Below, piece by piece: positions 9,679 through 48,333 of a DNA stretch of 64,000 bases. Every line of letters starts with the position of its first letter. Within the stretch, counting starts at the first letter, position 1. Below the pieces are notes generated by a model. That model had not been told where the DNA came from, searched no databases, and saw only the letters and a list, made by a program, of their open reading frames with translations. The stretch is from assembly GCA_036245805.1 (NCBI GenBank), contig BTRK01000005.1:12586001-12650000 (forward strand). Direction: 5' to 3'. This DNA comes from Pristionchus mayeri. Taxonomy: Eukaryota; Nematoda; Chromadorea; Rhabditida; Neodiplogasteridae. The translations under genes were made by a program, and so were the position numbers.

Positions 9679-11205
9679 GTGTGCTCGTTGCAGTGCGCGT
9701 AAATGGCGATGAAGAAATCGGTGCTTTGCATCTGCCACAATATTTATTTTAAAATTTAAAATAATATACTTTTTTTTAAATTTGCTAATAAGATTATGTG
9801 ATTTCCCACCTCAACGTTGCTGCCCTTTATTTCTGATTCAACATAGAAGTAGCCATCCTCGCCAACCAGGCCCATGTCTTCGAAATCGTGGGGATCCCCT
9901 GAATACCAAAATATATCTTTATTGACAACAAACAAAGAACAAACAAAGCATTGTTTGTATTTTTTGTTGTTGTGTTAACTGGTTTACAACAACAACGAAC
10001 AAAGAGAAAACAACAACAGAAATTTTAAAAAAAGGAAAATAAACTCACAGAATCCGTGGTCCTCCTCGAAGAGCAGGACGAGCGCATCGGTCATCGGAAT
10101 CCACTGGCCCGTGGTGTTGATGCATCCGAGTCGGCCGGTCACTTCCACCTGTTTGTTGACTATGTTTTATATTGACTACCAATCGTTTCCGAAAAATCTC
10201 TTATGTTATTTGTCATAATTTATGAGGGAAATATCAAAGATCACCTTTCGTTCATCGTAAATGCGGGGAACTCGGCTACGGGTCAGCAAAGCATCGGAGA
10301 GGAGAAGGAGAGAAAGAAGGAGAATGATGAGCTGGAAAAGTATTAACAAAGTCGTTTCACGAAATTCAGAAAAATGTTCCCGAAAATAGCAGAAATTACA
10401 ATTATACCTTCATAATCAGAAGGGAGAAAGAGAGGAAGTGACCACCCTGGAGGAGAAGGAAAATAGTGAATGAATGACAATGAATGATGTTTACGAGATT
10501 CTTTATCAGATAATTCAATTAGAGAAAAGCAAAGGAGAGCAATTTATCTTAAACAACAGTGTACTTATTTGACATTGTATTTGGATAATGTCATGGGTTT
10601 CATGTCTTCTTCAAATTCTGGTTTTCTGTTTTGAACAACTGCTACACAGCTCGGAAGGTGATCTGCAATTCTGAATCTTTACTCATCACTCGCCTTCCCT
10701 TCTACTACCTGCATTCCCCTGACATTCACTCCTCCATTCGGCTGCCACGAGACTCTCATGAAGTTCGACGAGTCGGTAGTGTAGATCTTGCCGGAGATTT
10801 CTCCCGTCAAACTGAATAACATAGAATTTTAATTTTTTTTAATTGAGAAATTATAATGGTATTTGTGAAATTCAACTCACTTGGCTACAATATTTCCTTC
10901 CAGTGTTTTATCCTCGAGAATCAGCCGATCGCAGCAAGTGTTCGCCTCTAGCAGTTGAATCTTAAAGGAGTGCTCCGGGGAATGTCCAGCCACCCGAACT
11001 GGCAAAAGGGTGTTGTAGATGACACTCATCCGATCAGAGATCACTTTGTACGGAATGCTACAGACGCCGCTAAGGGGCTGTGGGCTATCAAAGCTTTGCA
11101 ATCAGCGCAGGCAATGCGCGCAAATTTGAAAGTTTATAAACTTGGGATACTGTAAGTTATCAGAAAGTGTTCGAAAAATGAGGACATTTTAGCAATAAAC
11201 AGGTG

Positions 11206-11276
11206 CTTTGGACAGGAGTCGAACCTACGACCGACTGATCGCCAGACAAATGCCTTATCCATTAGGACACGCGGCC
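11206..11276 (-). pseudogene. tRNA-like sequence (degenerate, tRNA-Arg-like)
   Basis: The minus strand begins GGCCGCGTGTCCTAATGG and contains a B-box-like GGTTCGACTCC, so both internal promoter boxes resemble those of a tRNA. The acceptor stem does not close (3' side TGTCCAAAGC) and the anticodon arm appears altered, so I do not assign an anticodon. Lies inside the 11.5 kb element near its left end. Confidence 0.5.
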
Positions 11277-11660
11277 ATATGTGGGGCGACATTCTGCCAT
11301 ACTCTATCCCCCCTCAAAAACAAACGGTCGTTAATAAATTCGGGTTTAGACTGATGTCAGATAACCACAATAATAGATAATGTGAATGATAATCAATATG
11401 AAATATGATTCTAATGTAACAAAACGACGACATCTGAACTACACTCATGCAACACTTACTCTCCCATCATGCAAGGGGGGGCAGTGACCTTTCCTTGATC
11501 TACCCGAGTCTCATCGTCCCTTTCGGATGACATTTGCATGATTTTCCTTACCGATTTACATCCACGGCGCCCGATTGCGCTTTCATTTGGTTGTTTCATT
11601 GCTACTTGTGTTGTTTCTAGACCTTACAGAACTTATCTCTCGTTTCGTATTTCAGAGAGA

Positions 11661-12492
11661 ATGGAGGATTTCTCGACTCTAGAGGAGGCTATGGCAGCAC
11701 TCGGCAAGATGCAGAAGATGGAGAAGAAGGAACAGCAGGTCTTCCTATCATCTGTGGATCAGGAGGAGGCGATCACTTGTCACTGTGAGTGCTGCCCTCC
11801 TCGTCAGTCTCAGGAAGAGGGAGACTACTGTTGCGCCTCTCTCTTTTCTCTCCCTCTGCTCAAGAAGGGAATCCTTCTCCGTGATGGACTACTCGCCAAG
11901 CTGAAGGAGCGAGGATCTCACAGTTGCATCACTAAGGATCCTCTCTTCGTCGACTGCATTCTCAAGGAGGAGGTGAGTCACATTCATAGATACCGGACAC
12001 CCAATGACCTATCATTTTTTTACTGTACTATTGAAAACTTTAAAAAAACATAGAATCGTATCCTCTCACTACATTTATCGATTAAATTCGCAGCTACCGT
12101 ATGCCTTGCCACACATTGCAACCTACCGTAACTTTAGTCGTTCAACTTTCTAATGACCTACCACGTACTAAGAAACAGATAGGAATGGCTAATATTACTA
12201 ATGAAATATTTCGAAGATTGCACTGGCATCTGCTGAGACGTTCTCCATGCTGAGCGGAGAGCCGATCACTGATCAAAACAAGTGAGAACAATTGCGATAT
12301 CTACTCCGTTTGATGCGACTATTCAGGGCTCTCCGCTACGGCGCCTACCGTCACTTCGTGGCCAAGGCCATCGGACATCTGGGAAAGGGTGTCCGCATTC
12401 GACTACCCTCGTGCTTTGTGCATACAGTTAGAGAGAAATGGCCTAGCGCCAACTACATTGGTTTCTCGCTTTCTGAAATAAATGACATGTGA
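11661..12492 (+). CDS. P2RX7 C-terminal ('ballast') domain protein encoded by the transposon
   Basis: Three exons, 11661-11972, 12217-12281 and 12327-12492, join in phase to give about 180 residues. Motifs in order: HCECC, a second pair of adjacent cysteines (DYCC), SCITKDPLFVDC, then RYGAYRHF, GKGVRIRLPSC and IGF near the end. This order (cysteine cluster, C-I-T, R.-AYR, LPSC, Y.GF) is that of the cytoplasmic zinc-binding domain of vertebrate P2X7 receptors, here without any channel. The ATG is five bases after a TTTCAG acceptor (11650-11655), as expected for trans-splicing in nematodes. AATAAA follows the stop at once, and the THAP transposase starts 121 bp downstream, so the two genes may form an operon. 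Its role in transposition is unknown. Confidence 0.75.
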
Positions 12493-12613
12493 ACGAATAA
12501 AGTTTATTATCATATATTTTCTAATATTTTCCCGATCGGAATACGTTGAGTTCGGAATAACCATATCTGCACTATTTCTTTTCCTATTGCTAGACTATTC
12601 TCCCATTCCCAGG

Positions 12614-15368
12614 ATGCCCACCTGTGTAGCCTGTGGTACCAGCTCTGGGTCGAAGTTTCTCTTCCACCAGTTCACCGAGAAGAACAATCTCCGACCCCAG
12701 TGGCTCACTGCCCTTACCAAGGATGATGCCGCTAAGGCGGCGTTGGACATCTTCCTTCGTTCTACCCCAGGAAAACAGTACGTGTGTACTTCCCACTTCT
12801 CCCCCACTTCCTACAATGTCACCCCCACTACCCGTGTGCTCAAGCCCGATGCCGTTCCCATGTCGATGGTCAGTGACACATTTATTCACAAGAAAGATTT
12901 TTATCGAAGAAGAAATAAATACAAATCATTCGACTAGTGCCTTATTACAGAGGCCTTCGCCGACTATCTACCGTAATCCTACCGACTCCTACCCCACACC
13001 TAACTCGCCTTCTCCCACTCCTGTCCCTCTTCTCGCTCGTCCTCCTCCCTCCTTCCGACTCGCCGACGCGCCTGTTCCCCCATGTTGTCGCTGCTGCTGC
13101 AAGAAGGAAACTGTTAGTTTCACGTTTCTCATTAATATTTTTTTGAAAGTTGTATACCCAATGTTTTCTGCCCACAAATCTACTGATTTCAGCCTGCCGA
13201 GCTCAAGAGTGACCCCAACTGGACAGCTCCCACTCCCACCATCAAGAACCTCCCCGGATCCGAGTACTTCCTCATAAGCAAGACTAGTCTAGTCGAGTTG
13301 CTATCCTCATGCAACTCGTGCACTTCCGGTCAGCGCAATCTGACCTTCGTGGAAGATGCGCATGCACTCTCGTGCAAGTGCGAATGCACGAGTTGTGGGA
13401 AGGAGTACAAGTGGTCCAATAGCCCCGTGCTAAGGACCGCTAACACTTCCTCGAAGGAGAAATTAAGGAAGGTGAACGTAGACTTGGTCGTGGGATCGAC
13501 AGTAACTGCAATTGGAACTGCTGTCAGTTATTCGTTAGATGATTCCTTAAGGAAGGTCTTAAAAGAAAACGACCCTCTTCACCTCACTTATAGAGACTCA
13601 ACCACTTCCTCAATAACGTTGGTCTCAATTCCATCTCAAAGTCTGCCTACCACGACCTGAAGAAGAACTACGTCCTTCCCGCTGTTCATCAAATTTTCAC
13701 CAAGGCACAGGAGGGAGTTTTTGCACGACTCAAGGAGAGACTGGACAATGTATTTCATTTGAATGCTAAAACACGCATGACTATCCTAGGGAGAAGAACT
13801 TCATTTGGCTGGGGACGGTTCGTTCGACAGCAGAGGATACTCGGCAGAATGGTGCCGATATTTTCTTGTGGATGCACAGACTGGGGAGGCACTGATTCAC
13901 GTTCTGATGAATAAGAAAGAAACCAGCAGCAGCGGCACACTGGAGGTACTGTATAACAGAATATGAAAGAGAGGAACTATAGTAGAAATGGACTATGATC
14001 CACTCTCACCTCAGCGAAATGAAACGCGAATGATGCTAGTCCTACGCAGGTAACCTGTCTTGAGAAGGCGCTCAACGCCCTTGCGGACAAGATTGGAGGG
14101 GTTGCACGCATCAGCACCTTGGTGACTGACAGGCACGGAGCGGTGATAAAGATGATGCGCGATCGATTCCCATCGATTCGGCACTTCTTCGACCCGTGGC
14201 ATTACTTCAGGAATCTGACAATGAGCCTGTTGAAGGTGAATACATTGAGACCCGATTTTTTCTCCATAAAGAAATCTTTCCCATCTCTCTCATTCTCTCA
14301 TGTCTCTCCAAATTACAGATCACCAAGCCGAACTACATGACGACAGTCAAGTTCTGGACACGCAGAATCATTAACAAGGCTTACGATTCGGTGGTCAAAG
14401 CACAGGGAGATGGAACAGTTGCTAGCGAGATGTTCCGATCTACTCTTCACTGCATGTGCGGAGTGCACGACTTTTCGAGCGTGAGTCTCCCCTCTCCCCT
14501 ATGTCTACTCTTACATTATAGGACCCCTCCTTCACAACATTCAAGAAGTGCCTCCACTCTCCTCCATCGCCCGGTTCCCCTACCTCAAGGAAGACAGCAG
14601 AGCCTACAAAAGGCTCAAGTCCATCGTTTTCACGGAGAAAAACATCGAGGACATCAAGAATGTCAGCTGGCTTCTCAAAACGAGCACTGTTGAAAGCCTC
14701 AATGCTATCTCCTGGAAATACGCTCCGAAGGAGAACTATTTTGATAGGTACAGGAACAACCCCTTCTCGCACTTGAATACAATAAATAACAGAAACGGCC
14801 ACGAGCTGAGGACTATGATGGCGATGCTGCACTGGAATGAGCTAAAGAAAGACGAGGTGGATGGGACTAGGATTGTTGTAAGCGCCATTTTAATTTATTT
14901 TCGAGTAATGCGCAATTAAGACGGGAACCCGATCATACTACAACAACACGCTGAAGAAGCAAGTAAATAGAAACGTCAAATCGCCAGCAAGGAATGTTTG
15001 GCGGGACGCAGTCAAACAGACTGCTTATCAGGTCCGCTCAAAATGGTTGCTTGCCTATTATGCATTTCCAGATTCGCGCCTCTCTCTCTTCCACGCCCTA
15101 TGCTGCTATCAAGCAGGAACAGAATGATATACGGATGGAGAAGGTCCAACCCTAGTCTTTCCACTCTAACCTATTTGTACAGGAGGAGTGGAATCGGAAT
15201 AACACTCCTGTGGTACCTCTTCCCGGAGACTCTAACCTGGAGGAATCAGATGACGAGGATGACGTCTCCCTCCAGCACGACAGCGGATGTGCAGGCGCAC
15301 TTCTTGAAGAGATTCGAATGGAGCTGGAAGAGGATGAAGATTTACTCAATCAGCTGATCACCCACTAG
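12614..15368 (+). CDS. Kolobok-type transposase with N-terminal THAP domain
   Basis: Exons: 12614-12868, 12951-13112, 13193-13522, 13594-13749, 13790-13945, 14050-14235, 14319-14480, 14522 (or 14590)-14877, 14921-15031, 15072-15143, 15183-15368; about 710 residues. The first exon is a THAP zinc finger (C..C near the start, W, YVCTSHF, LKPDAVP). A Pro/Ser-rich linker and CCRCCCK follow. The core has SCNSC, CKCECTSCGKEYKW, then the candidate catalytic parts GDGSFDSRGYSAEW, TDRHGAVIKMMRDRFPSIRH and FDPWHYF, and YAPK with TMMAMLHWN. The acidic tail ends QLITH. Exon 8 is 356 nt if it starts at 14522, which breaks the frame by one base after KKCLH. An acceptor at 14589 would keep the frame but drop a conserved Cys-His segment, so this copy may carry a 1 bp lesion. 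Confidence 0.78.
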
Positions 15369-15602
15369 AAGTTACATTTGTTTCGTCATGTTTTGGTTGT
15401 TGTTAATATTAAAGTGTTCACTAAATGAATCCCATTGGACAGAAAATAAGTGCAAAAATATTGATCCCATGAAATAAAAAAGACACGACAGCTAAATAAT
15501 TGGCGAACACGGTATAATGCAATTATCCTGAGGGTATGTGAGTGCTTAAAAAGTGATTTCTCCGCTATTTCTTATGGAAACAAAATAATCAGGGGTGGTA
15601 CC

Positions 15603-16014
15603 TTATCCCTGAAGACGATGCTACCGGGCACGATGTACTTCTTCAGCTTCTCGTAGAGGTCCGAGCCCTTCCCCGCCTGGAAGAGGAGCTAAATATTAAC
15701 AATGTTGTTACAAATGACAGAAAACGGAAGGAAAACCCCATTGAAATACACTGCTGGTTTGAACAACGAAAACAAGAACTGACCCTGAGCGACCAGATAT
15801 CGTTGTCGTGCGAGATCTTGATCGCGCCAGCGACGAGTCCCACCCGGACAAGAATCCTGAAATTCAAATTTATAAACTTAACGGTTTAAACTATAAGTTC
15901 CTATAAATGGCAAGAAAACAGTGTTCAATCAACCCAATTTTAGCTGTGATGAGGCAGTAAAAGACTTACTTTCCGGTCTTCCACATGAAGCTCTCGTCGA
16001 TCAGTGGTTGTGCT
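15603..16014 (-). pseudogene. Possible ISXO2/Merlin-type transposase fragment
   Basis: Three minus-strand exon-like blocks with plausible splice ends encode QPLIDESFMWKTGK, then ILVRVGLVAGAIKISHDND, then KGSDLYEKLKKYIVPGSIVF-RDK. The pattern ID-E-S.., hydrophobic V-G, and K.Y..PGS...-DK resembles the DDE core of ISXO2-like (IS1595/Merlin) transposases. No complete gene is visible. The assignment is by pattern only; it could be another host-gene fragment. Confidence 0.35.
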
Positions 16015-16684
16015 ACCTAAATCAAGGGTAAAATTGAATAACAATCGCAACAAAACACGAGAAAAACTACAGAAGCCGACAAAAGAAACGATCAAACGTG
16101 ACGGAAGATGGCGGAGCACAGAACACTAAACATAGAAATGGCAACTCTACAGCAGTTGGTACTACACTCCACTACAGCTTGAACTATGATTCAAACTAAT
16201 TAAAGGGATTTGGCATTATATCATGAATTTATTTCATTTCACTTTAAATGACCAAATATTATGATAAAGGTAAATAAAAAATAATACAAATTAATATAAT
16301 AATTAATTTATGCAGTTAAAAGTACGGTATTGAAATACCCAGTACGAGAGTAACGTTGATTCGCTATGGTCCGCTAAACAGCGATATGGTGGGATTTGGC
16401 AGTTTGCCAAGTTCCTCTTGGAGCTTCTGATTCTTTTCCGACGTCTCTTGGCATTTTCTTTGTATTATTGGCTCATTCAGTACTTATTTTCTAGTTTGCT
16501 TCAAGCTAATCACTATTTTGAACATTCCCGCTTGAAATTCACGACACGAACCCAGTCAATCACGCTAGAATGTTGTTTCGTTGAACCAGCCTGATGACCT
16601 TCGTCTCTTTACCGTGGCGTGTGTTTTATTGTTTGTTAAACTATAATATTGTGCGCATTACAGAGGGCCATACCGTCCCTCACC

Positions 16685-16775
16685 ATGCCCGAGAAGTTCC
16701 AGTACATCCATCGTGTGATGAACACCAACATCGATGGGAACAAGATGATCCCTTTCGCCCCTCCCTCCCAGCAAG
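16685..16775 (+). pseudogene. Ribosomal protein S18 N-terminal exon fragment
   Basis: After a TTACAG acceptor, the frame reads MPEKFQYIHRVMNTNIDGNK, very close to the start of eukaryotic RPS18, then departs into PPSQQ and meets a donor-like site. It is isolated from the rest of RPS18, so it is a captured or retro-copied fragment inside the 11.5 kb element. Confidence 0.75.
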
Positions 16776-17019
16776 GTTTGTCCCGTTTACTTTGGTTCTC
16801 AATTCTTTAGTTTGACTCATCTTTCCTGGGAAAATTGCCCAACTTTCTCCTTATCGCACTCTCTATTGCTTCATGACTGGCGAAAGAGCACGTAAAAGAA
16901 GAGTCAGGTTTTTTCGACACACTCTGCGACATTGTTATTTCGTGTACTATATTCATGTGTTTAGTGGGCAGGATTTGTAGGTAGAAAACATGTCCTGTAC
17001 TTCATCTTATTCCGTTCAG

Positions 17020-17130
17020 GGAGTCGACCGGCGATAAGTTTGCCCTCAAGTGGATCGACACTTCCTCCAAGTTCGGCCACGGACGCTTCCAGACCACTGC
17101 CGAAAAGAAGGCCTTCATGGGCATTGACAG
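17020..17130 (+). pseudogene. Ribosomal protein L3 C-terminal exon fragment
   Basis: Preceded by TTCAG and followed by GT, the frame reads [20 protein letters not shown] then [11 protein letters not shown], matching the C-terminal end of eukaryotic RPL3. It continues IDR instead of the normal lysine-rich end. It lies 245 bp downstream of the RPS18 piece in the same orientation. Confidence 0.75.
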
Positions 17131-17836
17131 GTACGCTTATTTTTTTCGATCAAATTATGTGTCTTGATTTCGTTCCTGGTTTGAAAAAAAGGAATACTTT
17201 GGTACAAATCGTTCATGGCCAACTGTTTCACCACAACTTCTAATTAGCCACGCGAATTTCATGTTTTAATTTTGAGCCTTTCAAAGCAACGCCCATAGCT
17301 CACTAATAGGTTATTATTTATCTCTACTATACAATTAATATTTATATTGATTTATAAATATTAAATTGTTTATTTTTAAAATATTTGCAGCTCGAAATAC
17401 GCTTAACGATTATCGATTTTTCTTAAATGTTTTGATTGGTTGTCCTTATGGATTTCGACAGCTTTAAAATATTCTCCTTATATTTGCCGTTCGAAAATGG
17501 TGCTGTGAGCAATATAATATGAAAAATAAAGCAATTTAGAGATAAATTTAGACGGCGACTTGATTTGAAGAATAATTTTCACATGGTTTTTTTCCATTTT
17601 TTCTCTCGATTATTTTTTGTTTCGTTCTACAACTTGCTAAAGCCACGCTCACCTCAGGCTACTTGTGCAATATGCTTTGCCTTCATTCTCATGGCATTTG
17701 GGATGATTTTAGATATTGTGTTTTGCTTCGTGGTGAGAACAATGGGCCGTGAAGGGAAATGATAGGCTTAGGCACACTTCGCCGGATCCATTTTAGTAAT
17801 TATTTTATCGAGGGCTTATTACCAGCGCCAGCATTT

Positions 17837-18031
17837 CTGCATTATGTCGTACCAGAATGAGCGGAGTAGGAATGAGGAGGAAGTATGACAGGATAGGATA
17901 GGTGATGGTCGAAAATTATTTACTAAAATTACTAACTAACCGTAACGTATGGTACTCTTCAGCTATACCGTCATACCCTATCCTATCATACCTCCTCCTC
18001 ATTCGTACCCCGCTCATTCTGGTACGACATA
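17837..18031. repeat. Inverted repeat inside the 11.5 kb element
   Basis: ATGTCGTACCAGAATGAGCG at about 17845 onwards and its reverse complement ending about 18031 form an imperfect hairpin of roughly 60 bp arms around a 75 bp centre. It lies just upstream of the RPS2 fragments. Confidence 0.75.
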
Positions 18032-18065
18032 CTGCAGAAGTGCCCCAGTGCCTATATCATTTCAG

Positions 18066-18713
18066 GAGTTCGAGATCATCGACTACTCCTGCTCCAACCT
18101 GAAGGATGAGGGTCTCAAGATCATGCCCAGAAGCAGACCAGGTTTGTAATATTGTGAATAGATGAAAAAAGATGTATCGCCTGGTCCGACATAACGCAAA
18201 ATTGACAATGCGCGTTCAAGGACGTTTGTTGTACTCGTGTACTTCGAACAATATCGATATGCTCGACATTTATGTTATTGCAGAGCCGGATACTGCACCC
18301 GCTTCAAGGCCTTCGTCGCTATTGAAGATTTATTGGCGGATCCCGGTGAGTGGGTGCTCTTTATCACGTCAGCACCATAACATTCCTGCTTTGGTACCAT
18401 TTAGGACGAAATCGGCATGTCGGTACCAGACACGTATCGGTACCAGGAATGTATCACGTAGTACCACGAGGTACCAGACCGTCGAATGGTACTAGAAATT
18501 CCATATTATCCCGAATGAATACTTTTTTAAAACCCTGATAACAAGTGCCTCGAGCGAGTTAAAAATAAAAATACGATTGCAGTATTTTGAAAAAGTTTTT
18601 CTCCCTTGTGTCATAAAAATATTTTCTTATGCAGTGGTGGACGCGGAGGAAAGGAAGGAGACAAGGAGTGGATGCCCGTGACCAAGGTCGGACGTCTCGC
18701 CAAGGACATATAG
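18066..18713 (+). pseudogene. Ribosomal protein S2 exon fragments in shuffled order
   Basis: Three exon-like blocks: 18066-18141 (EFEIIDYSCSNLKDEGLKIM), 18294-18345 (AGYCTRFKAFVAIEDLL) and 18635-18713 ([20 protein letters not shown], ending in a stop). All match eukaryotic RPS2, but the last block corresponds to the N-terminus, so the order is rearranged. Each is bordered by AG/GT-like sites. The spacer 18380-18490 has several GGTACC-type repeats. Confidence 0.75.
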
Positions 18714-18840
18714 GTTGGCTAGTGTTGATTTTGTGAAGACAAAAAAAGTATTAGCTGGGTTGGTCGAAAAGTGTACATTGACAATAACATGCTTCTTTTT
18801 ATTTACTGACAAATATAACAAATTGCGGGTACAGTAATAA

Positions 18841-21821
18841 CTAGATTTCAACACTGCGCTGGGAAACCTCAAATTCTTCGTCCTCGCTAGAATCCTCGAA
18901 GTCCAATTGCTCTTCTTCATACATGTCGTATCCCGACTCTCGCTTTGCCTTCTCCTTCATATCCCACCAGTTCACAAGCTCGTCAAACACATCGTCCTCA
19001 GGGATTCCCAATCTCGCGATTTCACGCGCCTCGCTTAGCTCCTCCCGCACTTTCAAGCTCTCCGCCAATATCTGGAAATAAATATATGTGGAATTTATTT
19101 TAGTTGTATTTCGGGAATGCTAATTATTCACCTCGCCCCTCCAAACATGGGTACCCGCTCCTCTCTTTCTTTTGATTGCTCCCACCAATCGTCCTTTCCT
19201 CTTGAGAACGGTGTTCCCTATTTCGGCTCTCTGCCCAAGTAGGTCATCGAGCATAAGGCCGTTGTAATGTAGCATCGATACTAGCATTTTGAGCTTGTAG
19301 TACGGGGGCGAGCTGCAGTTATTACACCCTAACTCTGATCTATTTGGCCATTGTTTTACTAACCATGCTAGCATCTTCGGGGCATACATCAAGCTCAGTG
19401 AGTGATAACACTCATTGATCGATGTATCGATCAATGAGGCAGCAGTCAAAAAGGCCTTTTCGAACTTTGGCGCAAAGACCAATGTGCGAATCAACTCGAG
19501 CTCATCCGAATTTGCCTGAGAAAAATGGTATAATTTCGAATACGGTCTCTCAGATTGACTAACCAGCAGTATCTCTCGCTTTTCGCCCTTCTTCAGCTTC
19601 TTTAGTCTACCATGCTCGCACTTGGTAACAATTTCGAAGCCATCGCCCTATTATTGAATTATTTTATTGCTATCGCACTATTTGTTCACCTTTTTCCATT
19701 TATGCTTCCCCTGGATGTGCATGACGAACGACCTAACTACTTCTAGTGCACGTTTTCGATCTTTCAATAGAGGGTATTTATTATGGACGCAATATAGATG
19801 GTTGAAAAACTTCTGATAAATTGAAGCGAGTGCGGGATTGGCCTTTACGAGCTAAATAGTCATTATTTTTTAAAAGAAATATATGTTCTCGTCCCAACCT
19901 TCCACCATTCTTTTCTTATCGGCCGCTGGACGTGCCACCAATCATTGAGTACTTCAATATGTGCAGTCTTGGGCTCCTCTCGCAGTTTCTTATTAACCAT
20001 TGCATTTTGGTCACCAACTCGCGTGCTGAGCATACAACGTCTTTCCTCTTAGATACAACATTAGATCACGTTATCTCTATCCCTGCATCGATAAGCTCAA
20101 CCAGAGCTCTCTTTACTCCCTCGGACTCCATACGAATCGAAATTCCATCTAGAATAGGTATTATTTTTTCGGAATTCACAATCCCTTATACCTATCCCTG
20201 GCATATTCTTATGCACCGCAACTCCTGCCAAAGCCAGTTTCGTATGACAATCAATTACGGTGTCCTTATTATTCGTCGAGGTGAAGCCGGGGCAGTCGAA
20301 CTGACCATCTATTGAAACTTGCAGCCCCTTACCCTAAACGCTCAATTTAATGATCATGCTTTATAGCTTCCTATTTACCGCCGATGCGTTCACTGCTACT
20401 TCCCGCACTATTTCCTGCATCTCCTCGTGCACTCGCTCAATTGCAACACTCCCTATTTCGCTTACTACTTTCCGCATTTGTCTTTCCGACGACATATCCA
20501 TTCCTAGCAAATTCGCCCAATCATGCAATCTCTGAAGTTTTTAGTTTAAATTTTTTCATAGTATTTTTCCTCACCCTCAGGTCTCATGCCTGTGATGAAA
20601 GATGCGATGGGAATGAAATGATTGGCCGAGTACACTTGGCTTTTCCCTCTCCCAACCTTCTCCTGTCCTTCCCATTTGATGCTAGCCTTGCATTCCAGGC
20701 AATCGTAGTTCACTATCAGCGCACTACCCTCTGTCCTCGTCTCGATTAGACTTCGATCGAGCCGAGCCCCGCACTCTTCACACCGTTGAAACAAGCGCAT
20801 CAGGCAGCTATGCTCAATAATTCCATAGCGCCTGGCTACATCAATACTCTCGGCCTCTTCCTCATCAATCTCATGATCCTCCTCCTCATGCATGCTATCT
20901 TGGGAATACCGATATTCCGTATCCTAGAATCTATTTATTCTAGCGTATCCCTCATAGCCCACTAACCTCGGGTTCCACAGTAGTCATAGTAGCTGTGGAA
21001 ACAGCACTTTTAAATTTCTTGGGCACAACTTCATCAGTATCATTCCAGGAATCGACATCGATTGAATCGTTGAGGGAGAGGGAGGCGGTCGACCAAACTG
21101 GCTGAATTTTTTTCTCTTCGTTTTTCATTGTTCTCTTTTCGTTTGTATATCATCACATTGTTTTTCCAGTGATTTGTTTTCATATCAATACTCGTTGTAG
21201 TAATAGAATATATAATTTCTGAAAAATATAGCATAAAGACTGACATTGAGAGTGTCCTCATATGAGAGTGGCGACAGTGGAGCACGAGGGGATCTCGTCT
21301 CACTCTGAATGTCTCTAGCTGATGATTGAGATATATTTAGTAACGAATGATAGTAAGGCCAAGTGGGTAAGGATATTGTTGAACAGGACTCGCCCGCTCA
21401 TGCCATGATGCTGATTCATGCAACCGAGAGTTGTGTTCTGCCTTGGGATGGAGGTCAGCTGGCCTCGTGGTTCGAAGGGGTACGGTAGGGAGAGTGAGAG
21501 ATCTTGCGGGAACAGCTCTATGCTGGAAGCCCACATTGTGAATGAATCTTGTTGCATTTATACTAGATAGCAGGCAGTAAAGGTAGGGGAACTCACGTCA
21601 ATGGGAAGGTCGTCGATCTGCTTGTCGAAATGGCGTTCACACCATCGGGGATCTTTTTTCTGGCGATGCTTGTTGAGCAGATCCGCCGTCTCCTCATCAT
21701 CTTTGTTCAATCGTAGAACCCATTCCCTCTGTTTAACAGGACGACTAGCGGGGGGAAATCGTTTGGTCCATAGCGCAACTTCGTTGCACAAGAAACACCG
21801 TTTATATCTCGCTAATTCCAT
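18841..21821 (-). CDS. Second, divergent Kolobok-type THAP transposase
   Basis: The first exon (21597-21821) encodes a THAP-like C2CH module (KRCFLCNE, REWVLRL, WCERHFDK). One or two linker exons between 21550 and 21240 are uncertain. Later exons give PKKFKSAVSTATMTTVEPE (about 21000), MHEEEDHEIDEEEAESIDVA and CEECGARLD...NYDCLECKASIKW (20580-20935), SERQMRKVVSEIGSVAIERV (20398-20535), SIDGQFDCPGF (20160-20330), RMESEGVKRALVELIDAGIE (to about 20070), DWWHVQRPIRKEWW, KCEHGRL, the SINECYHSLSLMYAPK and LVSMLHYN blocks (19120-19515) and an acidic C-terminus (18841-19073). A TGA in the straight reading at 20066 is avoided by a 45 bp GT-AG intron that restores GDQN...HIEVLNDWWH. The gene appears intact. 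It converges on the plus-strand transposase and is clearly a diverged relative. Confidence 0.72.
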
Positions 21822-24800
21822 GATGCTGAATCAGATATTGTGTGTTCGATAAATATGGGTAATGGAAAAACTTGAAACTACACAAAAAATCGATGAAAAT
21901 ACGGTAAAAATGGAAATACGGAAAATTGGTGTAGAGCGAGCGTGCGCCTCAACTTTCCGCAGTTTCTGCACCCAGTCTAGAACGCGGCTCCGGTCTTGAA
22001 CTTTGATCTTCATTCTCCACTTAACAATTAATTTTTATTTTTATTTATTTTTGCAAAAATGATCGGAAAGGTGATAGATTTCATATGAGCGTCAATGTTC
22101 TAAGAGTGCCAGGTCCCTTTAATATGTCGTTATGATAAGATGAAACAGCTATTGTACGCGGTTAGCAAACAATCAAGTGTTTGAATGGTCAGAAAAACCA
22201 CATTACACTGATACGCCGTAATTCGAAGGATTTTGGTGCTCCAAGTAAGTTAACGCGATACAAAACGATAGAGCGCGTATCCAATTATTACAATTCAATA
22301 AACAAAGATCGAAAATAAAGCGAAAACAAACATTAGAAAGAGAAGAAACTGATGCTCGAATGGCGCTTTCAGTTTGCGATTTGTTGGCTAATTGCCATGC
22401 CAATACCGTATTCACTTGAGAGCGCTAAATTTTTGTTGCGAGAGTTTTCATGTATGAATTCCCCGGAGCACTCCTTTAACTTTCACTAATTGCCATATAA
22501 TTCTCGAATAAAGGTATCCACTTTCTCATAATATCTGAACAAGGTAATGACGAGCATACCTCTACTTGCACCTTCTTCCCCTCATCGACCTCGAGGAAAT
22601 AATCACATGGAATCGAGGCATCGTACGGAAAACCGGGTGAGTAGATCTGTATTTTAAGTGATTGAAAAGATTACTGACGTTCCGACTTACCACATCGCCC
22701 TCCTTCCAGGGACCTGTCGAGCATGTGGGACGGGGATCGGCTGCAACAATATATCAGGTTGATTCATAATTTTCGCTCCAAGACTTTTCTATAGTTTACT
22801 CGCTTGTAGTTCCCTTGTGTGCAGGACTACTTTTTCATTATTTCATTGGCAATAGGTGCACACAAATTATTTGTTTTAAGTGAATATACTCCACTTTGTT
22901 CCGCAGTAACAATTTTTTTCGAAATCGTGACGAATTGTACGGTTTTGGAGTGTTTAGTTCAATCCGTTCCTAAAACATAACAAACGTGATAAAATCGCTC
23001 AACGTTTGTGAAGTCACTAAGTAAGGATCAATGTTTCCAAGAAACACTTGAAAATATAATTTCAGATCTCCGGAAAAGCGCGCATTGTGAAAACTAGCGA
23101 AACCGACCATCGAAATTCGAATTTTTTTTTCCAAACGTGACTTTTGAAACGAATGCTGAATAAGCCCAATTATTATATGGTAGCATCGTCTCGATATGAT
23201 CCGTCGCTTCTGATAAATTATAGACCATTAGCTCGTTCATCAGAAATTACCAGCTCCTAGACACAAATTCCGCAAGATTCAAGAACTCAGAACTAAGAAA
23301 TTATTCCTTATCTTATCACGCAGTTTCAAGGCTGATCCGGCGCCCGTCTATTATATGAATGCCCATTCCAAATACTTTACGAAAATGTTGTTGTTGTGGC
23401 GCTTCCTTGCTTTCGTAATGAGTAAGATTCCATCAAAATGCCTACGCCAAATTTCAAGTGTATGGCATTTCGGTCCTTGGTATTTCAGTAGAATCGATCA
23501 TGCACAAAGAAATGTAAGAATTGATAAAGTCTGAAAGAATTGTAGTTCAAAAACTTCAGGTTCGAAAATGGAGCGAAAATTATGAATCAACCTAATAATT
23601 ATAAAATGTGGATAGGCCAGATATAGTGAAGAGTTATCAATGTATGGAACTGGCGAACTCGCCTTGACGCGCGCAAGCAACAGGCAATTTCGACGAGCAG
23701 TCCGTGTTCAGCCACTCTCCCGAATTGGAGAGAGTGTCCATCGCGAGGCAGTCACCTCTACTAGCGATCGGGAATCCTAGGATAATTGTGATTCAAAATT
23801 TACTGATTCAAAAAGAGAACGACTCTGACCAGGATAGAAGTTCTTGTAGTCCCAGGCGGACCCATCTATCCATGAGAACAGATTGTCCTGTCCTTTCGCA
23901 CCCAAGTACACTCCATTCACTGCACCATGAGAGGAAGCGAGCTTGCGAATGAAAGAGTTTTCCTGAATTCCATCTTTTGAATCATATTCTTGTGGTACCT
24001 GCTGACTGTGGACTGAAGCGACGCGCGCTCCGAGGTTCTCGCACGTGTTCTGCGCGTCTTGGAAGTTTTGAGCTGCAGGGCCGACCTGCATCATTAATCA
24101 TAGTTATGAAGCTCATCCGAAACCACACTCTACTAGCTTGTTTCGTAACCTCAAAGTCAAGTTTAGTTCAAAATATGTAGCACCTGTTAGCAGACTCCAT
24201 CATCACAATCATTCTCGAAGCTGTCGCATCCATCTCCAGCCGGTTGCTGCAATCGTCTATATCAATTGAAAAGCTGCAGCAACGCTATGTTCAGTCCTAG
24301 AGATCGCGCTTTAGTATACCTGATTAGGACGATTGATTATATGACTTGTAAAAATGAATGGCAGTGAAGCTTACCTGCAGTTGAGTGGTGCAGAACACTG
24401 GTACGATGAATATGTTGCAAATGTTTCCTGATTGGTATATTGATTATTCCATGAATCATTTTTTTCAGGCAAATCATGAACTCACCACAATCCCAGTAGC
24501 CTTTCGTGTTGATAAACCAGGTCCATCCCTCATTGCACTCAAAGTCCAGAGCTAAAATGTCTGCATTTCCTGTGATCATGAACGTTTTTTTTATTTTTCC
24601 AGTAAGAATAGACTCTGTTCACACCGAGTGAATTGTGACCAGCTACATTTTGCTTTCCCGCTACCATTTTACGGCCAGTTACTGGATATTAGGCGGCTCT
24701 TAGGGGGCAGAGTTTACAACGCAACTGGGGCACCTACCGGGATGATATCCGTAGGATCCGCCGACTGGCCTGTAGTCGATGTCGGTTCCGTCAGACCACT

Positions 24801-40117: not shown

Positions 40118-40191
40118 TGCTCCATGGGAGGATCGAACTCCCGACCTCGGCATTATAAGTACCACGCGCTAACCAACTGCGCCAATGGAGC
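40118..40191 (-). tRNA. tRNA-Ile (anticodon UAU)
   Basis: The minus strand gives a 74 nt cloverleaf: acceptor GCTCCAT pairing with ATGGAGC, D-arm GGCGCAGTTGGTTAGCGC, anticodon loop CTTATAA, T-loop GTTCGATCC. The anticodon TAT reads the AUA codon. No intron. A near-identical copy lies at 47500 on the other strand. Confidence 0.95.
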
Positions 40192-42223: not shown

Positions 42224-43214
42224 TAAATAAAGTATTGAATGTGTTAGTTAGCGTCAAATGCCGCGTTAATGTGAATACTCATTTCGAGAAACGACACTAC
42301 GAACTCTTCAGTCGTATAATCTCTGGCTGAACATCGAGAGATTGTGAAGAATGAAGAGACGAGGGAATTATTCTCGAACTCTGGTGAAAAATATTGCGAT
42401 GCTGACTAGAAAGTCCACTAGCATTTGTCTTGAAAAGGATGAAGCACATGCGACTAAAAATAACAATCAATTTAGTGAACGAGAAATACGTATTGTGAGA
42501 GGTGTTTTCCAGGGAAAGGGGAAAATACTCACAGGAAGCGTGATTTAACCTTACCCGATGAAGATATCTAGACATTAGATTGATAAATATATAGAAACTA
42601 ACATTCAAATAATTACTGGTCGTGTGGGAAAGAAATATAGATGGTACTTCCCGAAACTGCACTCACGGAAGAACTCAACTAGGCCAATTGATGAAACCTA
42701 ATGCACCTAGAGTCGATTCAACTACCTGTGTAGAAATGCATGGCTAGAATGTGAACACAGCCTAGCGACGGAGTGCAGGAATGCTAGAAATAAATGGTTG
42801 ATTTTAGAGATTTCTGGAATACGGCAACAAGATTGTATGCTAGCCGCGTGAGAATTACCGGAGAGAATTTATGGAAAGCATGCACCGTAAAAGAAACAAA
42901 ATTAATACATCAATTTTGAAAGCGAAGATGTTGAAAATTGATTGGCCGAAATAGCCACTAGACAGGATAGCAATTTCGCATTCAAATACGACATTGCTCT
43001 CATCTGATCTCGTGCCTCGAAATGTTATTAAAATATGCATTGTATCAATACACATTCTCGGAATAAAACATATTTTTCGACTGAATAAACGAACACATTT
43101 CGCCTTAACTTCCGGCTCATCTCCACAGCATTGACGATACTGAATAGTAACCGTCCGTGATTACTACCTTCACAGATACAATAAGCAGTTATTCTCGTAA
43201 CCGCCAATGAGAAA
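42224..43214. other. Gene-free stretch
   Basis: Upstream region of the chemoreceptor-like gene. Short frames on both strands show no domain or splice logic I can support. A missing first receptor exon might lie here. Confidence 0.4.
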
Positions 43215-43734
43215 TAGTGGTTAGCGTTTGTCAGTTTAAAGGGAGGGTGACATTTGCCAAACGGACATTTTCCAAACGAGCCACTGTTCGCTGGCAATTT
43301 AGCATAGCAACTTGGTAGTTGTTTTATTGTAACCAGTTTATGCTCCCTTACAATTACTTATATAAAACTTGTTAGCAGGCGATCATGAGTTTCACTCGTC
43401 ACCGACGACCCGGGGTTCATGGTCCAAAATTCAGAATTTGAGTAGAAAATCATGGTTAGATAAACACATTGTGCCGTAACCAATCGATATTCCAGTGTGC
43501 CAGTAACGTTACGCGGGGTTGTGTGTTAAGGATAAAAAATGGACGTAACTGTTGAGAGCCTGTTTAAAACGTTGTAAAAGGCTCGTGAGGCCGAGGGCGA
43601 TCCGAAAAAGTTGGAATGGGGTTTCGCCCCATTCCAACTTTTTCGGATCTTCCTCGGCCTCACGAGCCTTTCACAACGCTCACGCTACGAGGAGTGAGAG
43701 CAGGTTGGGATGATTTTACAACAGCGATAGAGTA

Positions 43735-45470
43735 TGGACAGTGGTGTGTGGTGGGTTACGGTAGCGTGCATTTAACTTTTATGTGATTTAGTAAATCACA
43801 CCATGGTGCGTGGTGTGGGTATACTGTAGCGTGCATTTAACTTTTCTGCGATTTAGTAAATCACACCATGGTGTGTGGTGTGGTGGGTTACGGTAGCGTG
43901 CATTTAACTTTTCTGCGATTTAGTAAATCACACCATGGTGTGTGGTGTGGTGGGTTACGGTAGCGTGCAATTAACTTTTCTGCGATTTAGTAAATCACAC
44001 CATGGTGTGTGGTGTGGTGGGTATACTGTAGCGTGCATTTAACTTTTCTGCGATTTAGTAAATCACACCATGGTGTGTGGTGTGGTGGGTTACGGTAGCG
44101 TGCATTTAACTTTTCTGCGATTTAGTAAATCACACCATGGTGTGTGGTGTGGTGGGTTACGGTAGCGTGCATTTAACTTTTCTGCGATTTAGTAAATCAC
44201 ACCATGGTGTGTGGTGTGGTGGGTATACTGTAGGTGGGTTACGGTAGCGTGCATTTAACTTTTCTGCGATTTAGTAAATCACACCATGGTGTGTGGTGTG
44301 GTGGGTTACGGTAGCGTGCATTTAACTTTTCTGCGATTTAGTAAATCACACCATGGTGTGTGGTGTGGTGGGTATACTGTAGGTGGGTTACGGTAGCGTG
44401 CATTTAACTTTTCTGCGATTTAGTAAATCACACCATGGTGTGTGGTGTGGTGGGTTACAGTAGCGTGCATTTAACTTTTCTGCGATTATGGTGTGTGGTG
44501 TGGTGGCTTACGGTAGCGTGCATTTAACTTTTCTGCGATTTAGTAAATCACACCATGGTGTGTGGTGTGGTGGCTTACGGTAGCGTGCATTTAACTTTTC
44601 TGCGATTTAGTAAATCACACCATGGTGTGTGGTGTGGTGGGTTACGGTAGCGTGCATTTAACTTTTCTGCGATTTAGTAAATCACACCATGGTGTGTGGT
44701 GTGGTGGGTATACTGTAGCGTGCATTTAACTTTTCTGCGATTTAGTAAATCACACCATGGTGTGTGGTGTGGTGGGTTACGGTAGCGTGCATTTAACTTT
44801 TCTGCGATTTAGTAAATCACACCATGGTGTGTGGTGTGGTGGGTAACGGTAGCGTGCATTTAACTTTTCTGCGATTTAGTAAATCACACCATGGTGTGTG
44901 GTGTGGTGGCTTACGGTAGCGTGCATTTAACTTTTCTGCGATTTAGTAAATCACACCATGGTGCGTGGTGTGGTGGGTTACGGTAGCGTGCATTTAACTT
45001 TTCTGCGATTTAGTAAATCACACCATGGTGTGTGGTGTGGTGGGTTACAGTAGCGGGCATTTAACTTTTCTGCGATTTAGTAAATCACACCATGGTGTGT
45101 GGTGTGGTGGGTAACGGTAGCGTGCATTTAACTTTTCTGCGATTTAGTAAATCACACCATGGTGTGTGGTGTGGTGGGTTACGGTAGCGTGCATTTAACT
45201 TTTCTGTGATTTAGTAAATCACATTTAGTAAATCACACCATGGTGCGTGGTGTGGTGGGTTACGGTAGCGTGCATTTAACTTTTCTGTGATTTAGTTAAT
45301 CACACCATGGTGCGTGGTGTGGGTTACGGTAGCGTGCATTTAAGTTTTCTGTGTTTTGATAAAATGCACCATGGTGTGTGGTGTGATGGGTTACGGTAGC
45401 GTGCATTTAAGTTTTCTGCGTTTTGGGAAAATGCATTATGGTGTAATGCACCCTCGTGGTATACGGTAGG
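43735..45470 (+). repeat. ~67 bp satellite array, about 25 units
   Basis: Units read GGTTACGGTAGCGTGCATTT, AACTTTTCTGCGATTTAGTA, AATCACACCATGGTGTGTGG, TGTGGTGG. Each unit contains two short perfect dyads, GATTTAGTAAATC and CACACCATGGTGTG. Some units are joined by a shortened TGTAGGTGGGTTACGG junction, and the last few diverge (GCGTTTTG, GATAAAATGC). Confidence 0.95.
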
Positions 45471-45985
45471 CGTCACAGACAAACAGACAGACAGACAGAC
45501 GCTACGACATTATAGGAATACGAGAAAGCCTCTCTTGCCCCGTTAGTTTTTTAAACGGTTGTCACATATTGCGAGTTATCATAAACATTAAAGAACATTC
45601 ATAATCGGTAGAGTGACAACGGTGCCTCACATTTTCTAAGGTGCATTTACTGAAGCCAAATTTGTCAACCTCCATCAGATATTTTTCGATTCACCTTCGG
45701 CTTCACGAATTTTCGCAATTGCTGCGGGAATGCGTAGATGCGTTTGCGAATGTTATAAATTTCGTTTCCAATTTTAAGTATGAATAGTTGTACACGACAA
45801 TTGAGATCTGGCTTCGCCCCATCGCTACTTTTTCAAATCACCCTCGACCTCACGAGCCTTTCGCAGCGCTCACGCTGCGGGGATGAGTGCATATTGGAAA
45901 TCAATTTCACGGAAACAGTGCTCGGAAACGTCACATGGTTAAAGTCATAGCCTTTTAAGACGATTTTGAAGCGAATTACAGCAAC

Positions 45986-46011
45986 TTAGGGTTAGGGTTA
46001 GGCTTAGGGTT
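45986..46011 (+). repeat. Interstitial telomere-like repeat
   Basis: Reads TTAGGG, GTTAGG-phase repeats with one TTAGGC unit, about four units. TTAGGC is the usual nematode telomere hexamer; the TTAGGG majority is unusual. Confidence 0.7.
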
Positions 46012-46785: not shown

Positions 46786-47499
46786 ATGACGATTATGCGT
46801 CAAATGTAGCGTTAATATGCACTTATGTTGGCATCTTGAAGTGTGTGAATGAGAACAACAACGGTTTAGAGATGAAGAAAATTGTGAGAACCGACTTAGA
46901 CGGAAACAAATAGCAAAACAATTGGTATAATATTTCGTGATTTGGATATGCCTATTGAACATATATAGACATGTACATAACTTGAATTTGAAATAGTGGA
47001 TAATAGATCTGTTCATGGTAGGAGGTAGGATCTATGTCGGCAAATTCGTTTGCCACCAAAAGATCCTATAAAATGGCCTCGGACTATATAAAAATAAGCG
47101 ATATAAATAATTGGCGGTTTTTTATAGAAGTTGAAAAAATCGAGGGCAATACCATTCAGATGAGTATATTTAATAATTTTCGTTGATAATTTCCGGAAAG
47201 CAATGCGGATTGAAGCATTCGTATTTCCTCGATTTTCGAATCTGCTTACATTTCAAGAAGTGTGGAAGTCGATGCGCTATAGCAGCCACCTGTAAACACA
47301 TTCCAACTTCAAAGTAGATGTTATAAAAAATGCCCCTTTTTCCCCCACACCCTCGCATCTCAATCGATCTACTCGATCTATGGAGGATGAATGTGAGAAG
47401 AAGAGACGAATAGTCACATGCAGCATTTGCATAGCTATCTTCCAAGATGCCGCATCTCCTCGCGCGATCTTTGGTGCATCTGCTTAGATTTCCGAATGT
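46786..47499. other. Gene-free stretch
   Basis: Between the foldback element and the tRNA. I see nothing beyond short unsupported frames. Confidence 0.45.
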
Positions 47500-47573
47500 G
47501 CTCCATTGGCACAGTTGGTTGGCGCGTGGTACTTATAATGCCGAGGTCGGGAGTTCGATCCTCCCATGGAGCA
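47500..47573 (+). tRNA. tRNA-Ile (anticodon UAU), second copy
   Basis: A 74 nt cloverleaf with acceptor GCTCCAT/ATGGAGC, anticodon loop CTTATAA and T-loop GTTCGATCC. It differs from the copy at 40118-40191 at two D-arm positions (GGCACAGTTGGTTGGCGC), one of which weakens a D-stem pair. Confidence 0.93.
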
Positions 47574-48333
47574 GAGCTTTTTTGCTGATTTTCTTTGGTA
47601 GGTTTTCACGGTCCCATGGGAATGGGTACAATGATGTTGCTGAAAAGGTAGCTAGCGAGCTGGCATATCATATGTAAATTAGCGATGTGAAATCGTTCCC
47701 TATTGCTGTCATCTAATCACTATCGGGTTGTCATAACCAGCGCATGACTCCTTTTCAAGAGTTTTCAGATATTGTTATTGAACCCAAACATGATGTGATT
47801 GTTTTTATTTTAAGGACGGAGGGTTATCATGAATTTTTGTGTGATTGCGTAAAAGTGCATTAAGCGCGCTTTCTACGAACACGGGGGGATGCCATCATTA
47901 GCTGATATTCCCCACCTACGCTGAAAGTAGTAAAAATGTTCGGTAAAGGTCATGCTTTCTGAATGGCATGAAGCACAGAGAACAGTACAATTATTGTAGC
48001 ATATCGTGACCTATTTTACGGATTCTGCGGATCTTCGTCTCTCTATTGTTCGATGTCCGAGGTGAGGGTATGAATGCAAAAAAATGCAAAAAAAAACCCG
48101 ATGATATAACGCTTTTAAACCCGATATAGCAGAAGTTTCTGAATTCGTAAATATGTAGAGCAGATTAACTGTTTCGTTGTGCCCCCTAACATCGGTAGAT
48201 TCAAATACTTGGAGATAGCGCTAGCCGTAGAGCGGATTTACTCGACAACCATCGTAAATGCAAATTCCAGTGCTCTTTCATAAAGTGAGCGTGTCCGGTT
48301 ATATTTGACAACTTACAAGTACTTCTCCATCAG
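47574..48333. other. Stretch upstream of the first Str receptor
   Basis: No supported feature. The first exon of the downstream receptor gene is expected in the last few hundred bases but was not identified. Confidence 0.4.

Follow-up and report, generated by a model that had tools for sequence, protein, structure and literature searches.

Kolobok transposons of the Kol0 type (Kolobok-1_XT and relatives), which insert at TTAA, end in RR...YY and encode a transposase together with the KolX or P2X7-ballast protein, have been described from vertebrates, annelids, cnidarians and sponges, and the lineages KolobokP/E/H/D carry nucleases or helicases as extra proteins (PMC9587614). In Xenopus, full-length Koloboks (XKol) of 6.8-13.9 kb occur together with T2 miniature inverted-repeat transposable elements (MITEs), and share with them AGGRR termini and the TTAA target (PMC6004289). 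Gene capture has been published for animal transposons with terminal inverted repeats (TIRs), the Pack-TIRs, 323 of whose 370 cases are hAT or TcMariner (PMC8277862), and for a nematode DNA transposon, Turmoil-1 of C. elegans, which holds fragments of two host protein-coding genes in its inverted repeats (PMC2572040); Pack-TYPE elements are defined as nonautonomous (PMC8903248). Both KolX-bearing Koloboks and gene capture by animal and nematode transposons are already published. Here we describe a stretch of 64,000 nucleotides from the genome of Pristionchus mayeri (contig C5, positions 12586001-12650000; hereafter the window), in which, very probably, two Kolobok transposons are nested, the lineage of the inner one having captured DNA of host ribosomal-protein (RP) genes and multiplied with the pieces.

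P. mayeri is a free-living diplogastrid nematode, and the genome searched comprised 290,818,952 bases in 73 contigs; loci outside the window carry L numbers. The outer element shares with Kol0 the TTAA target, the RR...YY termini and the pairing of a transposase with KolX, and extends this KolX-bearing type to a nematode, a group outside those listed for Kol0 in the consulted part of PMC9587614. With XKol and its T2-MITEs there are further common features, namely AGGRR termini, TTAA, a transposase with THAP and DDE parts and a candidate zinc finger, accompanying MITEs and element sizes; the stem “captur” is absent from the main text of that report as available to us, and host gene fragments are unmentioned there (PMC6004289). 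KolobokP/E/H/D likewise are Kolobok lineages with extra proteins, but what the inner element carries are host gene fragments instead of nucleases or helicases (PMC9587614). As in Pack-TIRs, these fragments lie inside an element bounded by TIRs and target-site duplications; the carrier here, however, keeps its own transposase exons, and the available main text on Pack-TIRs mentions neither Kolobok nor nematodes (PMC8277862). In contrast to Turmoil-1, whose fragments lie in the inverted repeats, those of the inner Kolobok are internal, partly intron-containing, permuted and derived from three RP genes (PMC2572040). In the open-licence literature, subscription papers being mostly uncovered, our searches turned up neither a Kolobok with captured host genes nor a swarm of RP pieces. 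What makes the locus interesting is the inner Kolobok with its captured gene pieces.

The boundaries of the two elements, in window coordinates, are the following.

10962-10965, no strand: left TTAA target-site duplication of the outer Kolobok
10966-10983, + strand: left TIR of the outer Kolobok, AGGAGTGCTCCGGGGAAT, a perfect 18-bp inverted repeat with the right TIR
16200-16203, no strand: left TTAA duplication of the inner Kolobok; L049 (about C5:49132550) has this site without an insert
16204-22118, no strand: inner Kolobok, 5915 bp, with its own TTAA duplication and the ends AGGGATTTGGCA... and ...TGCCAGGTCCCT (right end also written AGGGACCTGGCA)
22119-22122, no strand: right TTAA duplication of the inner Kolobok, read from the sequence
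22458-22475, - strand: right TIR of the outer Kolobok, a perfect 18-bp match to the left TIR
22476-22479, no strand: right TTAA target-site duplication of the outer Kolobok, read from the sequence

The outer Kolobok thus occupies 10966-22475 and measures 5,591 bp once the inner insert is removed. L049, a related outer copy, aligns to the window up to 16203 and resumes at 22119; its two matches overlap by exactly four bases, TTAA (L049 6852-6855), and the printed junctions agree, so that 16204-22118 is an insertion. The inner Kolobok also occurs by itself in L069, which is 99.0% identical over 16199-22122, carries TTAA and lies in different flanking DNA. The initial annotation had described one large multi-gene, Kolobok-like element at 10966..22475. 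Its coordinates, TTAA duplications and perfect 18-bp inverted repeat are right for the outer element, and the Kolobok-like character is borne out by the TTAA duplication, the AG...CT termini, THAP, a D/D/E triad with DxxH, and KolX. The apparent giant, however, has to be corrected to a nest of two, in which a Kolobok of 5.9 kb sits inside one of 5.6 kb that belongs to a different family.

The assignment of both elements to the Kolobok superfamily is supported, on sequence grounds, by the 4-bp TTAA duplication, the AG termini and KolX, despite the Pfam name of the domain common to the outer (gene A) and inner (gene B) transposases (PF20700, “Mutator-like transposase”). The outer termini, AGGAG...CTCCT, follow the RR...YY rule (PMC9587614) and the AGGRR pattern of T2-MITE (PMC6004289), and the inner termini, AGGGA...TCCCT with TTAA on both sides, likewise combine TTAA with RR...YY. 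By eye, both transposases have a C/DxxH motif between the second D and the E (gene A, GDGSFD/TDRHG/DPWH/STVESLN; gene B, IDGQFD/GDQN/DWWH/SINECYHS), and between DxxH and E, the place of the Kolobok zinc finger, both have Cys and His residues (gene A, HCMCGVHD...KKCLH; gene B, HLYCVH...KCEHG). Their respective relatives in P. pacificus, P0001 and P0008, match each other through the catalytic motifs (22% identity, E 2e-28). TTAA duplication is also a property of piggyBac, which has CCY...RGG termini; the termini here are AGG and no piggyBac model is among the Pfam matches, in agreement with the initial annotation, which had set the ends apart from those of piggyBac. P elements and THAP9 generate an 8-bp target duplication and have a P-type transposase, and were rejected on account of the 4-bp TTAA and the absence of a P-type transposase model among the Pfam matches.

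The inner right end followed by TTAA is present in 114 exact copies genome-wide. In a DNA search, the best 40 of 131 candidate right ends are all at least 98% identical, and for 39 of them a gene-B-like transposase lies no more than 4 kb away. The gene itself reads as follows.

18841-21821, - strand: inner transposase gene B, with a THAP-like first exon and DDE; motifs SIDGQFD, VGDQN, DWWH and SINECYHSL

Stops in gene B fall only between the exons aligned to relatives, the exons of the window, L068 and L069 being open as far as aligned, and one exon recurs in at least 38 rows, the window included, with at least 96% identity over at least 151 of 175 residues. Relatives of gene B are found in P. 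mayeri, P. pacificus, P. entomophagus and P. fissidentatus. Because the transposase exons are open, the inner Kolobok is probably a self-mobile, gene-capturing element. As for the two THAP-plus-transposase genes of the initial annotation, both transposases are present and gene A has its THAP domain, but the first exon of gene B scores only 0.034 for THAP, below the Pfam cut-off, with a C2CH pattern visible by eye. Since this exon does not exceed the cut-off alone and P0008 has no THAP match in Pfam, the THAP label for gene B is unproven. No KolX gene was found in the inner Kolobok.

The stretch that separates the inner left end from the 3' end of gene B contains, from 16667 to 18706, pieces of three host RP genes, all of them on the + strand and with exons 83-95% identical to those of the host.

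16667-16780, + strand: captured first-exon fragment of RPS18 (uS13), 89.5% identical to the host gene over 114 columns; ATG is now ATA
17032-17123, + strand: captured exon fragment of RPL3 (uL3), 94.6% identical to the host gene over 92 columns
17831-18043, no strand: 213-bp foldback with 70-nt arms (90%), inside the inner element
18045-18328, + strand: captured exon 3, intron and exon 4 of RPS2 (uS5), 74.0% identical over 327 aligned columns including the intron
18620-18706, + strand: captured upstream exon of RPS2 with splice acceptor, 92.0% identical over 88 columns, permuted to lie after exons 3-4

The corresponding host genes are located at C4:29044955-29045410 (RPS18), C1:21370200-21372204 (RPL3) and around C4:28630886 (RPS2), and the best PDB matches of the pieces are uS13 (1.1e-9), uL3 (8.7e-12) and uS5 (7.2e-15, three pieces joined as one query). 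In the RPS18 fragment of the window, 8 of 11 changed codons are nonsynonymous relative to the host. The piece with RPS2 exons 3 and 4 differs from the host over aligned bases by 5% in exon 3, 27% in the intron and 17% in exon 4, and the intron is retained with its splice sites, which points to capture of RPS2 at the DNA level. Foldback-like sequence is also seen beside the host RPS18 gene (L056 2390-2456 and 2819-2941). The host RPS2 gene (L071, C4:28630300-28631800) bears a ceN39 H/ACA small nucleolar RNA in each of two introns, both on the minus strand, at L071 755-882 and 999-1126 (43.1 and 40.5 bits against a cut-off of 35). Capture of this RNA was considered and rejected, as the captured RPS2 introns of the window and of L068 do not score for ceN39.

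The same cargo recurs across the inner lineage. In the subfamily of the window (window, L051-L055 and L069) all seven copies read contain RPS2 exons 3-4, and six of them the RPS2 upstream exon, L055 being without that stretch. A second subfamily (L059-L068) is about 60-63% identical to the window in most scored gene-B rows. Its member L068 has RPS18 exon 1 (91% over 125), a longer stretch of RPS18 exon and intron (78% over 339) and, from RPS2, both exons 3-4 with the intron (79% over 371) and the upstream exon (87% over 124). In L072 part of the transposase is deleted, and the remnant is 74-85% identical in DNA to L068, to which it is closer than to the window. Window, L068 and L072 agree in the order RPS18, RPS2 exons 3-4, RPS2 upstream exon. 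The upstream exon of RPS2 is present twice (92% over 121 and 90% over 92) in another element, L049/L074, of which 1.2 kb were read and contained neither RPS2 exons 3-4 nor RPL3. The RPL3 piece occurs in the window and L069, that is, in the subfamily of the window only, and was not found in L068 or L072.

Genome-wide counts tie the pieces to the transposon. The RPS18 search gave 34 matches, and after removal of three at C4:29.04-29.05 Mb (the host gene and a nearby partial duplicate) 31 loci remained; the 46 RPS2 matches, minus the host row, were split into a main group of 33 and a second group of 12. A gene-B-like transposase lies within 4 kb in 29 of the 31 RPS18-fragment loci and in 32 of the 33 main-group RPS2 loci, compared with a chance of about 0.4% at this distance, and 30 of the 31 RPS18-fragment loci have an RPS2 piece within 3 kb. 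On contigs C1-C5, for which the list of inner right ends is complete and to which such counts are restricted, an exact TTAA right end was found within 6.5 kb in 25 of 28 RPS18, 26 of 29 main-group RPS2 and 6 of 11 second-group RPS2 loci.

When host, window, L068 and L072 are aligned over 330 columns, 18 are common to the three elements against the host. These may reflect one ancestral RPS2 capture, to which they fit, although host-side changes would look alike; the common permuted order is the stronger argument. RPS2 and RPS18 were probably captured before the subfamily of the window and the L068/L072 group diverged, and RPL3 would have been captured additionally in the subfamily of the window, an order that we derive from the common permuted order together with the intron content. 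Template switching or gap repair after excision would be the most likely route of capture, and the inner lineage would then have multiplied with the pieces as passengers, its own transposase exons being kept open.

Several observations weigh against this reconstruction. The RPS18-RPL3 part was read in only two copies of the window's subfamily (window and L069), and L072, given its closeness to L068, counts only in part as independent evidence. None of the 12 second-group RPS2 loci has a gene-B-like match within 6 kb; L072 is the one copy of this group that was read, and there that part of gene B is deleted. The TTAA+AGG left end was not recognised in L068 or in 3 kb of L072. By eye, the RPS18 pieces of the window and of L059 have no obvious common change against the host, and RPS18 may have been captured separately in the two subfamilies. 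Copy counts of families are lower bounds or best-scoring subsets, and transposition of the inner Kolobok is read from its copies. Finally, the lower divergence of RP exons described below is not what simple drift after one capture predicts.

RPL3 behaves differently elsewhere in the genome. The search gave 35 matches, of which seven are host rows, and the other 28 were merged into 16 loci (among them C5:12692756-12696421), seven of them with several pieces; two of the 16 loci lie about 43-46 kb beyond the window. None of the 16 has a gene-B-like transposase within 6 kb, and none of the 13 on C1-C5 lies near an inner right end. The RPL3 pieces outside the element are other parts of RPL3 and, judged by the one locus read (L073), lie in other repeats; L073 has no TTAA+AGG ends in 3 kb. 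A single control, PF00573 (RPL4), gave one genome match, partial and with two TGA inside, and no fragment swarm; it is a weak control, as the host RPL4 gene itself was poorly recovered.

The simplest reading of the RP fragments is that they would be passengers, a selected role being unproven. It is based on the lost RPS18 start in the window, the RPS18 frame broken in L059, and a summed ratio of nonsynonymous to synonymous differences (pN/pS) of 0.62 for the RPS2 upstream exon against the host over five element copies, which is near the 0.5 that we estimate to be expected without protein-level constraint since the capture. Between the subfamilies, RP-exon positions differ by 0.09-0.15 as against 0.20-0.27 for their neighbours in five of six pairs (for example 44/301 vs. 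175/693, p 1.7e-4, and 60/432 vs. 218/945, p 6.6e-5). Fisher p-values for the five pairs range from 0.03 to 7e-5, with the pairs not independent and AT-rich DNA aligning poorly; the L072-L074 pair shows no difference (10/108 vs. 42/371, p 0.60). Gene conversion, repeated capture or selection on nucleotide identity may account for the low exon divergence.

Could a self-mobile Kolobok lineage keep and renew host RP exon pieces as a shield against silencing by germline small RNAs, through sequence in common with mRNAs that are essential and strongly expressed in the germline, with the exons maintained by selection on nucleotide identity (camouflage or hostage)? Silencing of the element would then silence host ribosomal mRNAs, or the pieces would mark element transcripts as self, and the expected signature would be exon-only, codon-blind conservation. 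The divergence data hint at such a signature, with five of six pairs lower in the RP exons without clear codon-level constraint, and the RPS2 search listed 45 fragment loci apart from the host gene, to which the window's subfamily is added. We nevertheless regard this as unlikely, as the pattern is equally explained by gene conversion from host exons, by repeated capture or by AT-rich DNA that aligns poorly, the L072-L074 pair does not show it, and the case is built on sequence, not on RNA.

RP genes commonly give rise to processed pseudogenes, and the pieces, if they were such pseudogenes or separate later insertions, would not be transposon captures. Their shortness, the occurrence of RPL3 pieces in L073, a repeat in which no Kolobok ends were recognised, and the distance of all 13 RPL3 loci on C1-C5 from inner right ends agree with this. 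However, the host intron with splice sites in the RPS2 piece, and RPS18 intron sequence in L068 as well, on account of which processed pseudogenes were rejected, the permuted order common to window, L068 and L072, and the 18 of 330 four-way columns, with the caveat on host-side changes given above, argue against this explanation, and we consider it quite improbable. That the pieces make up a functional chimeric gene, with which the transposon encodes a protein, is still less probable; they do lie on one strand, the splice-site dinucleotides of RPS2 are kept and the exons are more conserved than their neighbours in five of six pairs, but the RPS18 ATG has become ATA in the window, its frame is broken in L059, and the pN/pS ratio is near our estimate for the absence of protein-level constraint. 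That a single Kolobok of 11.5 kb came to hold both transposase genes, KolX and the cargo within one pair of ends is hardly credible and is rejected, since, even though one perfect 18-bp end pair and one TTAA duplication enclose everything and Xenopus Koloboks of similar length are published (PMC6004289), the inner part is bounded by separate ends with a TTAA duplication of their own, stands alone at 99% in L069, is missing at the same site of L049, and has no DNA match between the ends of six 2.2-3.8 kb outer relatives (L039-L043 and L045).

The outer Kolobok contains two genes and two further features.

11204-11272, - strand: tRNA-like sequence within the left end of the outer Kolobok; Rfam 24.3 bits, cut-off 29; not called by ARAGORN
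11661-12492, + strand: KolX gene, 180 aa, 9 Cys; exons 11661-11972, 12217-12281 and 12327-12492
12614-15359, + strand: outer transposase gene A, THAP and DDE, nine exons; frame break in exon 8 (14522-14877)
15578-15840, - strand: segment common to the six 2.2-3.8 kb outer relatives, 72-74% identical by DNA comparison

The exon structures of both genes are our own splice reading. The cysteine-rich gene that the initial annotation had noticed is present, and its predicted product is identified as KolX, the accessory protein of Kol0 elements (PMC9587614): it matches P2RX7_C (PF20478, the P2X7 cytoplasmic-ballast domain) at 4.5e-11, above the Pfam cut-off. Its first exon is found at eight other loci (L010-L017) with 77-83% identity, and at all eight TTAA followed by AGGGGTGCTCC(G/A)GGGAAT stands at the same left position; L014, L015 and L017 have the flank CTTTTTAA in common and may be segmental duplicates, not separate insertions. 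Dozens of further KolX-like genes genome-wide, about 43% identical and with 117-aa open frames, are, judged by their predicted proteins, another abundant KolX-bearing family of P. mayeri.

Gene A has the motifs GDGSFD, VTDRHG, DPWH and STVESLN and, read across the frame break, matches THAP at 1.8e-8 (above the cut-off) and PF20700 at 1.2e-12. Its exon 8 is broken in frame relative to L049, in which gene A has a stop further on. By eye, the N-terminus of P0004, a relative of gene A in P. pacificus, is KolX-like, PF20478 not being listed for P0004 by Pfam. Protein relatives of the outer element occur in P. pacificus and P. fissidentatus (44-59% identity), the sole other match being a tick protein (27%). 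The tRNA-like sequence may be a captured tRNA or chance. The segment at 15578-15840 may be a host-gene capture, though one peptide translated from it is without a PDB match and no Pfam match above the cut-off was found.

The initial expectation that other copies would share the 18-bp ends is borne out. The 18-mer has 434 exact copies in the genome, 415 of them directly after TTAA, and none when read backwards, so that chance does not account for it. Among 20 stretches fetched, TTAA stands outside every outer end with at most two mismatches; two matches with three mismatches (L043 and L048) lack it and were taken as chance. Twelve MITE-like copies of 283-295 bp (about 288 bp; mean identity 0.85) carry outer ends. 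The six relatives of 2.2-3.8 kb are 83-90% identical to the window element over 245-389 aligned bp at the left end and 157-351 bp at the right, and have no DNA match to the transposase exons; the identity between L040 and L045 is 98.9%. Exact end pairs 4.9-6.5 kb apart on C1 were considered as full-length copies and not accepted as such; L035 and L036 hold two MITE-like pairs each. In L032, L033, L035 and L036 the outer-family ends have mirror-image flanks, as if within large inverted repeats.

The outer, older element belongs to a KolX-bearing (Kol0-type) family. Its transposase would use the THAP domain to bind the AGGAG ends and would insert at TTAA, and the MITEs of about 288 bp and the 2.2-3.8 kb copies, as short relatives with these ends, were presumably moved in trans; a recently active Kolobok of another family then entered the outer element at a TTAA. 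What would make the nest of general interest is that a Kolobok lineage with open transposase exons spread rearranged RP pieces, some with introns, to dozens of sites, and that DNA-level gene capture by an animal TIR transposon can be traced stepwise (RPS18 and RPS2, then RPL3) in one genome. The system also offers a place to test captured essential-gene sequence as protection from small-RNA silencing.

Elsewhere in the window, positions 43000-46000 have a GC skew of up to +0.25 and an AT skew down to -0.21, which suggests a long strand-biased sequence. Two tRNA-Ile(TAT) genes, at 40118-40191 and 47499-47574, lie on opposite strands 7.3 kb apart.

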